Shown here in pieces: positions 10,464 through 63,851 of a stretch of 64,000 nucleotides of DNA. Made by a program: the position numbers and the translations under genes. The notes beneath the pieces were generated by a model. The model saw nothing but the letters and a program-made list of their open reading frames with translations, was not told where the DNA came from and did not search any database. The stretch's first letter is position 1. Each line of letters begins with the position of its first letter. The stretch is from Bdellovibrio bacteriovorus W (GTDB taxonomy: Bacteria > Bdellovibrionota > Bdellovibrionia > Bdellovibrionales > Bdellovibrionaceae), in NCBI GenBank assembly GCA_000525675.1, contig CP002190.1:1364001-1428000 (forward strand), given 5' to 3'.

Positions 10464-11285
10464 TTAAACGCTGACTTGATAGTCGCGAAGAGCATCTGTC
10501 AGGGAAGTTTTAAGATCTGTGCTGGCTTTGCGTTTTCCAATAATAAGCGCACATGGAACTCCGTAAGTGCCTGCAGCAAAGTCCTTCATCTGTGTTCCAG
10601 GAATCACTACAGAGTTTGCTGGGACACGGCCTTTGTATTCAACAGGTTTGTCGCCAGAAACATCAATGATCTTCGTGCTGGCAGTGATAGTGACGCCGGC
10701 TCCAAGAACAGCACCTTCTTCAACAATAACACCTTCAACAACGATGCAACGGCTGCCAATAAAAGCATTGTCTTCAATGATAACAGGAGTTGCTTGCACA
10801 GGTTCTAAAACGCCCCCAATGCCTACGCCACCTGAGAGGTGAACGTTCTTACCGATTTGGGCACAAGATCCCACTGTTGCCCAAGTGTCGACCATTGTGC
10901 CTGCGCCAACATAGGCGCCGATATTCACGTAAGAAGGCATAAGGATCGCACCTTTTTCAATGAAAGAGCCTTTACGAGCAATAGCGTTGGGAACTACACG
11001 CACGCCTTGTTCATCACTCCATTGTTTTACAGGGATCTTATCGTAGTACGTAAAATCACCTGATTTCATAACATCCATTTTTTGAATGCGGAAATAAAGT
11101 AAGATCGCCTTCTTGATCCAATCGTTGGTTTTCCATTCGTTATTGATCTTTTCGCAGACGCGGAGTTTGCCAGCATCAAGACCTTCGATGGTTTCAAAAA
11201 TAAATTTCAACTCATGAGTAGAAAGGTCATCGATAGATTTTCCACCTTGAATGTCTTCATAAATTTTATTCACTTCATTTTGCAT
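10464..11285 (-). CDS. dapD: 2,3,4,5-tetrahydropyridine-2,6-dicarboxylate N-succinyltransferase
   Basis: 273 residues, normal DapD length. The left-handed beta-helix hexapeptide repeats are clear ([46 protein letters not shown]), and the C-terminal [17 protein letters not shown] is typical. It adds succinyl-CoA to tetrahydrodipicolinate in the succinylase route to meso-DAP and lysine. Good Shine-Dalgarno (GGAG). It is followed upstream on the same strand by a murein-peptide amidase and murI, so the operon links DAP and D-glutamate metabolism. Confidence 0.96.
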
Positions 11286-11296
11286 TTTTGAAACTC

Positions 11297-11959
11297 CTAG
11301 CTTTCAAGTACTTTCAGGGATTTTAAAATTGCGGGTACATGCACGCGAATGATTTCTTCAGCGGCAAGGCCTCTTTCAATTTCGTAGGTTAAAGTGGGAT
11401 GATTTCTTTCTAAACCAGTATAGGTGCCAAGGCAACCTGGGGTTGGGTAACCAATTTCTGGGTCAATGCGATAGCCTGTTTCTTCAGCAATTACTTCAGC
11501 GACTTTGTGGCAATCTCCATTAACATTGAGCATAGGTTTCCACGAGTGCAGAGAAAGAACGAAGACCGGCTTCTTTGCGGCGATATAGTCGATCAACCCT
11601 TTGTTTTCAGCTTCGCTCCCAGCAGCCGGGCCTGGATGATAGCGGGGAGTTGTTACCTCTGGTGACCAGTCTTTGGTTGGCAGGTTGCGATTGAGATCAA
11701 CTCCATTTCCATTGCCACGGGTTTTAAAGACAACACCTTCTAAATTAAACTGAGGGACTAAGGTGATGTTGAGTTTTAAGTCATAAGATTTCATGAAATA
11801 TTTTAAAATTTCTTGGGCAGCAATGACACCCTCGATTTCATCTCCATGAACGCCGCCTAGAATTAAAACTTCTGGGCCATCGTTTTTAAATTCATAAGCT
11901 AGTACAGGAAGACCTTTTGAAGTGTAAGTGAAAAGCGAAGTTTGCATCGAAGCTTGCAT
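11297..11959 (-). CDS. M14 family zinc carboxypeptidase, murein peptide amidase (MpaA-like)
   Basis: About 220 residues. The zinc motif [10 protein letters not shown] gives His and Glu ligands, SLHSW the third ligand, and TYEIERG the catalytic glutamate. DLNRNLP carries the substrate-binding Arg. MpaA cuts the gamma-D-Glu-DAP bond of murein tripeptide, releasing DAP during recycling. The neighbours dapD and murI strengthen this call. There is no signal peptide, which agrees with a cytoplasmic recycling role. ATG at 11959 is chosen because AAGGA lies 8 nt upstream; a TTG two codons earlier is less likely. Confidence 0.83.
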
Positions 11960-11980
11960 GTGCAAAGTCCTTTTTAATTT

Positions 11981-12787
11981 TTAAACGTTAACGACGGTGA
12001 AGGTATCTACTTTGACGGGTTTTAAAATTCTTAAAGCCACTTCGTTGAAGTGAGCTGAGTGATCTGTTGTCATAAGATCAATCACTCGAGGCTCCATATC
12101 AATACGAGTCTGGAGTCTTTGGTTTTTAAAATCTTTTTGAATCCATTTTGCAATGGCTTCGCCAGAATCCACTAACTCAATGGAAGAACCTGTGACTCTC
12201 GCGATAGAACTTTTCAAAATCGGATAGTGAGTACATCCTAAAATCAGCGTATCGATGTGGTTCTCAAGCAAGGGGCTCAAGTATCGATACACAATCAAGT
12301 TCGTCACAGGATCTTGATCCCAGCCTTCTTCTGCCAACGGGACAAAAAGAGGGCAGGCTTGATCGTAAACTTGCGCTGAGGGATTTAGTTGCAGAATCTT
12401 CTTTGTATAGGCTTTGCTATTGATTGTTGCTCGGGTTCCTAAGACACCGATGCGCGAGCTCATAGATGCCTTTAGTGCAGTCTCTGAGCCGGGATCAATC
12501 ACGTTGTAAACAGGGATGCCCTCGAACTCTTTTTCAGAGTACTGAGTGGACGCTGTGTTACAGGCAATCACAATAGCCTTCACATCTTTTTTGCGAAGGA
12601 AGGCGATGTTTTGTTCAGAGTATTTGCGAATCGTCTCTGGCGATTTAGATCCATAAGGAAGGCGTGCCGTATCACCAAGGTAGACGAAGCTTTCTTGGGG
12701 AAACTGCAATGCGAGCTCTTTCAGTACTGTGAGCCCGCCTATTCCTGAATCAAAAACGCCAATGGGGCGAGAATCGCTAATAGACAT
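11981..12787 (-). CDS. murI: Glutamate racemase
   Basis: 268 residues, full length. The N-terminal GVFDSGIGGLTVLKEL and the two catalytic cysteines in VIACNTAST and LILGCTHYPIL are all present. It makes D-glutamate for peptidoglycan stem peptides. Together with dapD and the amidase it forms a murein-building and recycling cluster. It lies 3 nt after the IMPDH/GMPR stop codon, so the genes are probably cotranscribed. The Shine-Dalgarno is distant (GGAG 14 nt upstream). Confidence 0.96.
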   Translation of the reverse strand: MSISDSRPIGVFDSGIGGLTVLKELALQFPQESFVYLGDTARLPYGSKSPETIRKYSEQNIAFLRKKDVKAIVIACNTASTQYSEKEFEGIPVYNVIDPGSETALKASMSSRIGVLGTRATINSKAYTKKILQLNPSAQVYDQACPLFVPLAEEGWDQDPVTNLIVYRYLSPLLENHIDTLILGCTHYPILKSSIARVTGSSIELVDSGEAIAKWIQKDFKNQRLQTRIDMEPRVIDLMTTDHSAHFNEVALRILKPVKVDTFTVVNV

Positions 12788-12790
12788 AGT

Positions 12791-13840
12791 CTAGTTTTTT
12801 ACTCCGTGTGCACGTGATTCGGCAATTCCATTCGATGACATTTCCATAAACTGTGCGTTTTCACGCATTTCTGCAATCGTCGTTGCGTTGAGGTAGCTCA
12901 TACCTGAACGAATGCCGCCAGAAACTTCGAGAATGACATCGCGGACGTGTCCTTTGACAGTAACAAACGTTGCTTCACCTTCTGGGGCCATACCCTCTGG
13001 TACGCCACCTCTCCAAGAATCTTGAGCTGCACGCGAAGCCATACCACGGTATTGTTTGCGTCCGTTTTTGATTTCCCCTGGAGTTTCAATGGTTCCTGAA
13101 AGCATGCTTCCAAGCATGACCACATCGGCACCTGCGGCGTAGGCTTTAACCATGTCGCCTGAAGTACGAATACCACCGTCAGCAATCACTGGAACGCCGT
13201 GAGCCGCAGCCACTTCTGCGCAAAGAGCAATAGCCGTAAGCTGTGGAACTCCACAACCTGTGATAACGCGAGTTGTACACATAGAGCCAGGGCCGATACC
13301 AACTTTAATAGCATCTGCACCGGCTTCGATAAGATCTTGAGCAGCATCAGGAGTAGCCATGTTGCCAGCGATGATTTCAACGTTAGGGTAGGAATCTTTA
13401 AGCCATTTCAAAGTTTCCATCATTTGGATGGAGTGTCCGTGTGCGATGTCGATAGTGATTAGATTTACTCCGGCATCAATAAGAGTTTTTGCACGAGCTT
13501 TAAACTCTTCACCCACACCCACGCTTGCAGAGATAATTTTTACGCCGTTTTCTTGAAGGCGGCGAGCTTGGATGGCTTGTTCTTCAGCGGAGATAAAACG
13601 ATGCAGGATACCGACTCCACCAAGTTGGCTCATTGCAAAGGCCATGTCGTACTCAGTGACCGTGTCCATGTTGGCGCTGATGATTGGCATCTCGATAGTG
13701 ATTTTTTTTGTTAAACGAGTTGTTAGCTTTGGTTCACGACGAGAACGGATGTCTGAACGCATTGGCATAAGAAGAACGTCATCAAACGTTAAACCACGGC
13801 CACGAGTTTTAATGTCTTTCCAGTTAAATGTAAGATTCAT
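12791..13840 (-). CDS. IMP dehydrogenase / GMP reductase family protein lacking CBS domains
   Basis: 349 residues forming one TIM barrel. Motifs: [29 protein letters not shown] and [20 protein letters not shown] with the catalytic Cys (188), then [13 protein letters not shown] and [10 protein letters not shown]. The length matches GMP reductase and there is no CBS insertion after the LHRF strand. But [20 protein letters not shown] and the C-terminal [10 protein letters not shown] read more like IMPDH. It therefore either makes XMP from IMP or reduces GMP to IMP; the sequence alone does not decide. Good GGAG site before the ATG. Confidence 0.85.
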
Positions 13841-43378: not shown

Positions 43379-43852
43379 ATGCAAGCAAAACCAGTTTCTG
43401 CATCTCAAGTGACGATGACTCAATTAGTTCTTCCTTCTCATACAAATGCCATGGGCAGTGTTTTCGGTGGAACGATCATGTCGTGGATTGATATTGCAGC
43501 AGCAATTGCAGCGCAAAGACATTCTAATAAGGAAGTGGTCACAGCAAGCATTGATAAGCTGGATTTTGTGGCGCCGGTTTATATCGGATGGGTTGTGAAC
43601 TTAAAAGCCAGTGTGAATTTCACTTCGAGAACTTCTATGGAAGTGGGGATTCGTGTTGAGGCGGAAAATCCTAAAACAGGTGAGATGTTTCATACGGCCT
43701 CTGCTTATACGACTTTTGTGGCTCTCGGCTCGAATGGTAAGCCAACGCAGATTCCAGAACTTGAATTGGAGTCAGAGGTGGATCGTCGTAGATTTGAAGC
43801 GGCAAAGGTTCGCAGACAAGTTCGCCTTGAACAAAAAAAAAGCCCTAAATAG
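43379..43852 (+). CDS. Acyl-CoA thioesterase (hot-dog fold, YciA/ACOT type)
   Basis: 157 residues. The hot-dog motif MTQLVLPSHTNAMGSVFGG TIMSWID (split) and TASIDKLDFVAPV with the catalytic Asp region fit YciA-like enzymes, which hydrolyse acyl-CoA to free acid. ATG at 43379 follows GGGAG; a longer frame from 43307 would translate the upstream terminator and add an apparent signal peptide, which is probably an artefact. It ends in a terminator that includes the stop codon. Confidence 0.86.
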   Translation: MQAKPVSASQVTMTQLVLPSHTNAMGSVFGGTIMSWIDIAAAIAAQRHSNKEVVTASIDKLDFVAPVYIGWVVNLKASVNFTSRTSMEVGIRVEAENPKTGEMFHTASAYTTFVALGSNGKPTQIPELELESEVDRRRFEAAKVRRQVRLEQKKSPK

Positions 43853-59196: not shown

Positions 59197-59458
59197 AGGG
59201 ATTCTTAACGGAGAAATTGGGACTTGGATTCACAAACTACGCCATGATTGTCGTATGGGTGTCGAAGAGGTCGCTCGAACTCTCAATCGAACTGTAAAAG
59301 AGGTTGAAGATTGGGAGGCGGGTAATAGTGCTCCTTCTTTTTCTGAGTTATTAACATTGCTACGGCTTTACCAAGTCGATCCCCAGCTTGTAGGGGCTAA
59401 GTTATCTTTATTCTATTTAAATCACTCAGCTCGAATTTCGAGAAAAACCAAAGTTTAA
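59171..59458 (+). CDS. Small XRE-type HTH protein
   Basis: 95 residues. The HTH is GTWIHKLRHDCRMGVEEVARTLNRTVKEVEDWEAGNSAPSF. The rest (LLTLLRLYQVDPQLVGAKL) is helical. Its start overlaps the MerR gene by 26 nt, so the two are probably made together and may act as a pair, for example on the PepSY promoter (inference). ATG at 59180 is an alternative start. Confidence 0.82.
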   Translation: MGKMKVHIEGILNGEIGTWIHKLRHDCRMGVEEVARTLNRTVKEVEDWEAGNSAPSFSELLTLLRLYQVDPQLVGAKLSLFYLNHSARISRKTKV

Positions 59459-59743
59459 ATTTTAAAGCTTCATAGCAAGGCTTTGTCTTCTATAAAACGA
59501 TCCAATCCTTTTGCACGATAAATAGAGTCTCGTTAAAGAAGAGGTTTATAAGGATTTAAGGATGGCAGAGCAGTTTTTGGGCCTTTATATCACCGATTCA
59601 GTATGAAGTTCTTCTAAAAGCGGGCACTACGTTTGGAGGAGTGGCGATTAGCGATCACTCGGTCCTAATGCTGCGCGTATAATGAAGAGGAGCCTCGCGA
59701 AGAGGTGCAAGAATCCTAAAAAGCTGATAGATCTTAAAGACCT
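59459..59743. other. Leader region upstream of ileS
   Basis: 285 nt. It contains a short ATG frame at 59562-59606 (14 codons) and a second frame in +1 register that reads like coding sequence to 59682, hinting at a broken small gene or chance. A hairpin CCTC-GCGAA-GAGG is at about 59692-59704. I see no T-box consensus. Confidence 0.35.
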
Positions 59744-62700
59744 ATGGCAAATGCAAATACTCAAAATACACCTTATTCGTCCGTTAAACCTGATGTGAAT
59801 CTTCCAAAGCAAGAAGAGTCAATTTTGAACTTCTGGGATCAGGAAAAGATCTTTGAGCAGACGCTCGATCCAAAAGGTAAAAAGACTTATAGCTTCTACG
59901 ATGGGCCTCCGTTTGCGACAGGGCTTCCGCACTATGGTCACTTATTGGCGGGAATTCTTAAAGACGTTGTTCCTCGTTATTGGACAATGAAGGGGTATAC
60001 GGTTCCTCGTCGGTTTGGTTGGGACTGTCATGGTCTTCCAGTTGAGTATGAAATTAACAAAGCTCAACAAAATCGAAAGTCGTAAAGACGTTTTGAAAAT
60101 GGGCGTTGCTAATTATAACAACGCTTGCCGCAGCATCGTGAAACGTTACGCTGAAGAGTGGAAAACCACCGTTCGCAGAGTGGGGCGTTGGGTAGATATG
60201 GAAAATCCATACTTCACCATGGACGTAAGCTTCATGCAGAGCGTGTGGTGGGTGTTCCAAGAAATGTATAAAAAGGGTTTGATCTATGAGGGGTACAAAG
60301 TTGTTCCGTACTCTGTAGGTATCTCAACTCCGCTTTCAAACTTTGAAGCCAATCTAAACTACAAAATGGTTCAAGATCCTGCCTTGACTGTGATGTTCAA
60401 ATTGAACAATCAAGAAAATACTTGGGTTCTTGCGTGGACGACGACTCCTTGGACGTTGCCATCAAACTTAGGTTTGGCTGTTGGTGTGGATATTGACTAC
60501 GTCAAAGTAAAAGAAAAATCTTCAGGCAAACAATTTATTTTAGCGCAGGCTCGATTGGAATCTGTATGGAAGAACTGCACAGATGAAGTTGAAGTCTTAG
60601 GAATGATGAAAGGGAAGGATCTTTTAGAGCTTACCTACGAGCCGATCCTACCGTACTTCGGTGATCGTGCTGCTCAAGGCGCATTCCGCATTATTGCCTC
60701 TGACCACGTGACAACTGAAAGTGGTACTGGGGTTGTTCACATGGCGCCAGCCTTCGGTGAGGAAGATTACTACGCTTGTGTAAAAGCGGGAATACCATTG
60801 GTAAATCCGGTGGATGACGACGGGATGTTCACCGCTGAAGTTCCAGATCATGCGGGTAAGCGCGTGAAGGAAGCGGATAAAGATATTATCGCTGACTTAA
60901 AAAAACGTGGCAGCTTGTTAAAGCAAGATACGATTCAACATAGTTACCCATTCTGCTATCGCTCTGATACGCCGCTGATTTATCGAGCGGTTTCTAGCTG
61001 GTTTGTGGCTGTTGAAAAAATTAAAGAAAACTTAATGGCGAATAATCTACAAACTTCTTGGGTTCCAGATCACTTACGTGACGGACGCTTTGGGAAGTGG
61101 TTAGAGAATGCTCGTGACTGGGCGATCTCGCGAAATCGTTTCTGGGGAACACCGTTGCCGATTTGGAGAAACGCCGAAGGTGAAGTGATCTGTGTTGGTT
61201 CTTGTGCAGAGCTTGAAAAGCTTTCTGGTAAAAAGATTCATGATCTTCACATAGACATCGTTGATGATATTGTGATCCCTTCACCAACTGGCAAGTCAGA
61301 TCTTCGCCGTGTTGAAGGTGTTTTAGACTGTTGGTTTGAGTCTGGCTCTATGCCTTATGCTCAATGGAACTATCCACAAGAAAACCAAGAGCAATTTAAA
61401 AAAGCTTTCCCAGCAGATTTTATCGCTGAAGGATTGGATCAAACGCGTGGTTGGTTCTATACACTGTCGGTGATTGGAACTGCTCTCTTTAATCAAGCGC
61501 CGTTTAAAAATGTCGTGGTGAATGGATTGGTTTTAGCTGAAGACGGTCGTAAGATGTCTAAGAGCTTGCGCAACTATCCAGACCCAATGGAAGTTTTAAA
61601 TAAGCATGGTGCCGATGCTTTGCGTCTCTACATGATTGACTCTCCGGTGGTGAAAGCTCAGGAGTTAAAGTTCTCAGAAAAAGGCGTTTTCGATATCGTT
61701 CGTAAAATTCTTTTAAGATGGTGGAACTCTTACTCGTTCTTTGTCAGCTATGCAAATATCGATGGCTTTGTGCCAAAGGGTGATGCGAAAAATTCTCCGA
61801 ACATTCTGGATCAGTGGGTGCTTTCACGCTTACATGCGTTGATTGCAAACACACACAAAGAAATGGATGCCTACCGCCTTTACAACGTGGTTCCGCATCT
61901 TTTGCAGTTCATTGAGGATTTAACAAATACCTACATCCGCTTTAATCGTAGCCATTTCTGGCAAGAAGGCATGCCGGAAGAAAAACGTTTTGCCTATGAA
62001 ACTTTGCACGAAGTGCTAGTGACGTTATCAAAACTAATGGCGCCGTTTGCACCCTTCATGGCTGAAGAGACGTACAAAAATTTATCGACTGTTCTGCCGA
62101 ATGCGAAGAACAGTGTGCACTTAGAGAGCTTCCCTGAAGCAGATTTAAGTTTGTTAAGACCTGAATTGGAAGAAGCTGTTAAGGCGATGGATGCGCTTGT
62201 AACTTTGGGACGTAATCATCGTGAAAAAATCGCGGTGAAAGCTAAGATCCCACTGAATAAAATCCGCATCATTCACCGTAGCTCAGATTTGTTAACAACT
62301 CTGAAAAAATTTGAACCGTATTTCGTGGACGAGTTGAACTTTCGTGAAGTTATCTACGATGCCAATGAAGATCAGTTCGTGCAGGTAACGGCGAAGGCGA
62401 ACTTCCCAGTTCTAGGTAAGCGTCTTGGACCAAAAATGAAATCTGTCGCGGCGGGTATTCAAGCTCTACCGCTGGAGAGCATCTTGAAATTAGAAAAAGG
62501 CGAAGCTGTTGTTGTCGATGGTGAAGAGATCCAATTGGCTGACGTAGAAATTCGTCGTTCAGCTAAAGGTGATAATGCCGATATCTCTGTTCATCAGGTT
62601 GTATCAATTGAGGTTGATCCAACAGTGACTCCGGAGCAAGAACGCGAAGGTTTAGCTCGCGAAGTGATGCGTAAAATTCAAGTCGCTCGCAAAACTGCAG

Positions 62701-62918
62701 ACTTTCAACTGGATGATAAGATCCGTTTAGAACTTGCGGTTGAGGGTGGTTTATTAGAAGCCGTTGAAGCCCATAAAGAGATGCTGATGTCTGAAACACT
62801 GACAGCAGATCTTAAGTTGTTGCCAATGTCTGCAGAACCAACAGGTAAATTCACTGAAACAAGTGATATCGATGGAGCTGCGATTAAAATTGGTGTGACG
62901 AATCTACCGCGCGTATGA
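59744..62918 (+). CDS. ileS: Isoleucyl-tRNA synthetase, eukaryote-like (type 2), reading frame broken near 60070
   Basis: About 1057 residues when both frames are joined. The first part (59744 to about 60070) has [19 protein letters not shown] (HIGH motif as HYGH) and [17 protein letters not shown]. The second (to 62918) carries [12 protein letters not shown], the editing domain, [12 protein letters not shown] and the [14 protein letters not shown] motif. PHYGH and the C-terminal architecture fit type-2 (mupirocin-insensitive) IleRS. The two parts are in different frames (+1). Deleting one A in GCTCAACAAAATC restores [13 protein letters not shown]. Because the enzyme is essential, a sequencing error is likely, but a true mutation or programmed shift cannot be excluded. 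Confidence 0.93.
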
Positions 62919-63695: not shown

Positions 63696-63851
63696 GATTT
63701 GCGGAGTCCACTTAGTGCAGTTCCTTGCGCTTCAGCGGCACAGCATCCTGCTTCAGTTACGGCCGCTGGCTTCGCCATCGGTTCGGGCCGTCCAGGCCCC
63801 CGCAAAGGCCGCTTTCGGCCAGGGACTGCACTAAGTGGACTCCGCAAAATC
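63696..63851. repeat. Foldable inverted-repeat element (MITE/REP-like)
   Basis: A 24-bp perfect inverted repeat bounds the element: TTTGCGGAGTCCACTTAG... (63698-63721) and its complement (63825-63848). Inside are three further hairpins: CAGCGGC (63733-63739)/GCCGCTG (63762-63768), GGGCC/GGCCC (63785-63799) and GGCCG/CGGCC (63807-63820). The interior is GC-rich compared with its neighbours. It folds as a long stem with three branches and is intergenic after trmO. The 3' remainder of the window to 64000 holds nothing I recognise. Confidence 0.75.

Follow-up and report, generated by a model that had tools for sequence, protein, structure and literature searches.

A single surplus base splits the ileS reading frame of Bdellovibrio bacteriovorus W: a probable error in the published chromosome sequence

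The ileS locus

The window analysed here is a stretch of 64,000 nucleotides of the chromosome of B. bacteriovorus W (contig CP002190.1, positions 1,364,001 to 1,428,000), and positions are given in its own numbering. An ileS gene on the forward strand (59744–62918) is cut into two reading frames by one surplus A at 60066–60067, as deduced from the translation of the open reading frames (ORFs) and from the alignment with relatives. The features of the locus are as follows.

59744–60085, + strand: 5′ piece of ileS, an ORF of 113 amino acids; matches TIGR00392 positions 5–100 of 861 (E 4.1e-38) and PF00133
60066–60067, + strand: surplus base, one of the two A's in CTCAACAAAATC; one base fewer in 18/18 aligned relatives
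60069–62918, + strand: 3′ piece of ileS, in the +1 frame, stop codon at 62916–62918; matches TIGR00392 positions 92–855 (842 bits), PF08264 and PF19302

The frame is split after codon 107. The 5′ piece ends with YEINKA, followed by QQNRKS and a TAA stop codon (60083–60085), and the remainder of the gene is read in the +1 frame, which is open to 62918; the single-base frameshift that the original prediction had described in ileS is indeed present. Because of this stop and of the change of frame, the gene is not one uninterrupted reading frame. The two frames overlap in 60015–60085. The junction consists of CAAC then AAA, and the longest run in CTCAACAAAATC is A4.

The two pieces make up one isoleucyl-tRNA synthetase (IleRS), since they cover positions 5–100 and 92–855 of TIGR00392 (NCBIfam). 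The 3′ piece alone scores 842.3 bits, above the curated cut-off of 621.4, and the 5′ piece scores 131.1 bits over profile positions 5–100; these matches of both pieces confirm the earlier naming of the gene. The 5′ piece is also matched by PDB chains of IleRS up to residue 106–112, and the 3′ piece carries the anticodon-binding domain and the C-terminal DUF5915 (Pfam). HYGH (59930–59941, in the 5′ piece) and KMSKS (61551–61565, in the 3′ piece), which we take to be the HIGH-type and KMSKS motifs of IleRS, are separated by the break. Compared with the IleS proteins described by TIGR00392, the coverage is the same (the two pieces jointly span positions 5–855 of 861, and both motifs are present), and the gene differs by the one surplus base that splits the frame. 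The ileS of strain W is an ordinary bacterial isoleucyl-tRNA synthetase gene.

Copy number

The genome is a single contig of 3,006,992 bases, 99.96% complete. Searches of the whole contig with PF00133 and TIGR00392 revealed no second ileS, so that the intact copy elsewhere, which had been considered as one way out, is not borne out. The best paralogue (L001) is ruled out as a second ileS by its NCBIfam match, which identifies it as valS; the other matches to PF00133 or TIGR00392 are two genes that are leuS-like and metG-like by size and score, and one weaker class I match. A degenerate pattern of the junction matches the genome once, at the window itself. A true null of ileS should be lethal, because there is no other ileS in the genome.

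Conservation of the frame in relatives

The DNA of ileS was searched for in 39 genomes, including that of strain W. Among the 38 relatives, 18 align across the junction, another 18, including four of the same genus (G004, G013, G016 and G017), give no match, and two match the query only in short segments away from the junction. Exactly one base fewer is found at CTCAACAAAATC in every one of the 18 aligned relatives, in agreement with the one extra A of the original prediction. Apart from the surplus base there is no further gap in the aligned junction stretch as printed, which means that a nearby compensating indel is absent.

The same 39 genomes were searched with the TIGR00392 profile (E threshold 1e-100). 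A stop-free ileS, running from profile positions 1–5 to 856–860, is present in 37 of the 38 relatives, including G004, G013, G016 and G017; G026, which is 83% complete, gives no match at this threshold. The only interrupted match, which begins at profile position 92, is that of strain W. All 23 other members of the genus searched have an uninterrupted orthologue, and no second genome of the same species as W was found among the genomes searched. Since the aligned relatives are one base shorter and 37/38 relatives are uninterrupted, the break cannot be put down to chance.

When 27 further ileS loci, retrieved by protein from named records, were added to give 45 loci, both pieces were in one frame at 44 of them; for L009–L026, the comparison stops at codon 730 of the second piece. 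The loci are not all independent, as some may share a genome: L034 and L023, for instance, have almost the same location on contigs of like size. The remaining locus, L052, has no match to the first piece, and 84 bases separate the start of its second piece from the end of the available stretch.

The 5′ piece of strain W compared with G018 gives dN 0.069 and dS 1.38, and the 3′ piece dN 0.115 and dS 2.3; with G023, the values are dN 0.064 (dS 1.35) upstream and dN 0.123 (dS 2.69) downstream, and the whole ileS of G018 compared with that of G023 gives dN 0.076 (dS 1.38), all these dS values being near saturation. Such rates indicate strong purifying selection on both sides of the break, and no decay. 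The dN of the downstream piece is somewhat above that of the whole gene between G018 and G023, and its dS is also higher; we read this as probably reflecting a longer branch leading to strain W together with regional variation, rather than decay.

There are two kinds of ileS in the genus. The long form occurs in strain W and in 18 of the 23 other members (open frames of 1056–1108 amino acids in those 18), and a short form of 930–953 amino acids, which resembles that of most other genera searched, occurs in the other five (G003, G004, G013, G016 and G017). This suggests that one kind was replaced by the other within the genus.

Other frame breaks in the genome

The frequency of such breaks was estimated by comparing 800 kb of the genome of strain W with the ORFs of two relatives, G018 and G023; the starting sample, later enlarged, paired the first 400 kb of strain W with 331 kb from G018 and 400 kb from G023, and the G018 sample contains 174 N. 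Among the 316 ORFs of the relatives that have a good counterpart, covering 313,013 bases of strain W, two genes of strain W are frame-broken: ileS, which is seen with both relatives, and a gene of 1198 amino acids, dnaE. With so few broken genes, the genome is not generally error-ridden. Both breaks fall in the second half of the 800 kb, which accounts for 48 of the 316 comparisons, and none among the 268 comparisons of the first half, but nothing firm can be drawn from the clustering of only two events. Two breaks per 313 kb would correspond, very roughly and with wide uncertainty, to about 19 per genome. In the reverse comparison, of the ORFs of strain W with the relatives, one break was found in 321 ORFs, in what is probably a shadow ORF; should this be a true gene, one break would count for the relatives too. 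When we subtract the protein-coding and RNA genes from the PGAP gene totals in Table 2 of PMC7137782, W is left with 30 genes, NC01 with 23 and HD100 with 3; this is compatible with about 19 breaks per genome, although W does not stand out against NC01.

The second one-base break is in the replicative dnaE, outside the window, in an A9 run at about G000:C1 1494544–1494552 (L081:10544–10552). Its two pieces (L081:10053–10559 and 10579–13596) match DNA polymerase III alpha, and for the other PF07733 gene of the genome the best match is the error-prone polymerase model. Compared base by base with G023, the break is one surplus base in A9, the run of G023 being shorter and interrupted. The replicative dnaE is expected to be essential, and A9 runs are a place where base callers fail.

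Within the window, another A9 run (43833–43841), at the end of another ORF, was considered as a frame break and rejected: by eye, it opens a terminator-like hairpin. Outside the window, a G12 run lies inside a reading frame at about L072 8085 (G000:C1 about 1312085). It is the longest G run of the 800-kb sample, the next longest being two G8, and the tract could be hypermutable.

Origin of the break

The break in ileS is very probably an uncorrected error in the published chromosome sequence. In this mechanism, a base-calling or assembly error would have introduced one false A at 60066–60067, and the living cells would carry an uninterrupted ileS, like 37 of the 38 related genomes; we infer that living cells lack the surplus base. 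Two core genes, ileS and dnaE, that each have one surplus base and are recognisable on both sides of it are best explained by such errors. Against an error, the ileS site is A4 at most and not a long homopolymer, and thus not the classic context of such errors, and few breaks were found in the 800-kb sample. Of the three possibilities that had been envisaged at first (a second ileS, a sequence error or an unusual frameshift event), the second is much better supported, the first is contradicted by the genome searches, and the third has little support.

A precedent is Vibrio fischeri ES114, in which 75 of 82 suspect loci held errors, mostly frameshifts (PMC2330054). There, likewise, broken conserved genes were detected by comparison with a relative; the errors of ES114 were settled by resequencing (PMC2330054), whereas that of strain W is a probable one, judged from sequence comparison. 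The literature listings gave nothing usable on the sequencing method of strain W. In the accessible text of three articles, the words "frameshift" and "tRNA ligase" are absent from PMC7137782, "isoleucine", "frameshift" and "pseudogene" from PMC11656739, and "isoleucine" and "pseudogene" from PMC5941755. If the surplus base is an error, both ileS and dnaE appear broken in the reference of strain W, and two core genes would be recorded as missing by pipelines that leave out broken genes. The ileS break merits a database correction.

Alternatively, the surplus A may be real and enough full-length IleRS may be produced by +1 (or −2) ribosomal frameshifting or by slippage of the RNA polymerase. 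We consider this very unlikely, even though a shift anywhere in the overlap of the frames (60015–60085) would rescue the protein. The site offers little to a recoding mechanism: CTCAACAAAATC is neither a slippery site nor a long homopolymer, its longest run being merely A4, and no codon before the stop seems, by eye, to give good re-pairing in the P site in the +1 frame. No stimulatory RNA structure was detected in the one stretch that was folded, the 101 nt from the junction (60060–60160), since 37 of 200 shuffled sequences are at least as stable (z −0.79). There is no Rfam match in 59400–60400, and a scan of 59400–60200 for sigma-70-type promoters and terminators returned no match, which is neutral as to recoding. 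Moreover, the surplus base is shared by none of the 18 aligned relatives, and none of the 37 matched relatives has an interruption. If it were real, a predator genome would rely on recoding for an aminoacyl-tRNA synthetase.

Regarding slippage, corrective slippage at long poly(A) tracts is known in endosymbionts (PMC5009743), and the fact that a second gene of strain W, dnaE, is broken at A9, a slip-prone kind of site, may be seen as an argument in its favor. In both cases the gene disrupted by an indel is one that the cell should need, but the endosymbiont genomes are very reduced and their sites are long A tracts (PMC5009743), whereas the ileS site is A4 in a 3.0-Mb genome. The break of dnaE in A9 is closer to the endosymbiont sites, and it is a better candidate for slippage than the ileS junction. 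That both one-base breaks are real, and that both genes are corrected at the time of expression or that ileS functions as two assembling pieces, is similarly improbable; if it were true, this would be unusual for a free-living organism with a 3-Mb genome.

There is also a slim chance that the surplus A is real in part of the DNA that was sequenced, as a culture mutation or a minority variant, and is not the state of the viable wild type. The assembly would then look identical, and strain W is an old laboratory strain (PMC7137782 cites a 1972 reference for it). On the other hand, a culture in which every cell had lost an essential single-copy gene could not be kept growing, so that the variant would be a minority at most, and a minority seldom reaches the consensus.

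Least probable of all, and hardly credible, is a functional IleRS made of two assembling polypeptides, encoded by 59744–60085 and by an ORF that starts inside it (for example at ATG 60048 or TTG 60015). In its favor, the second frame is already open ahead of the break and contains possible starts, and Shiba and Schimmel reportedly assembled E. coli IleRS from fragments. Against it, the break separates HIGH from KMSKS within the catalytic domain, ribosomes would need to initiate on the second piece from inside the first, with no strong ribosome-binding site ahead of ATG 60048 or other sign of a dedicated start site (by eye), and none of the 37 matched related genomes has a split gene. Among the literature matches listed, nothing relevant to a split IleRS appeared in the titles or in the beginnings of the abstracts.

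Genome context

The published size of the genome of B. bacteriovorus W is 3 006 992 and its G+C content 43.3% (PMC7137782, Table 2). In the 800-kb sample its G+C content is 43.1%, compared to 45–51% in the samples of the two relatives, and the genome is smaller than those of 22 of the 23 other members of the genus. Last, an inverted repeat lies just 3′ of the gene that follows ileS (63698–63848 of the window); its 31-nt arms are 94% complementary and separated by 89 nt, and the 19-nt core of the arms is found solely there in the genome, once per strand.
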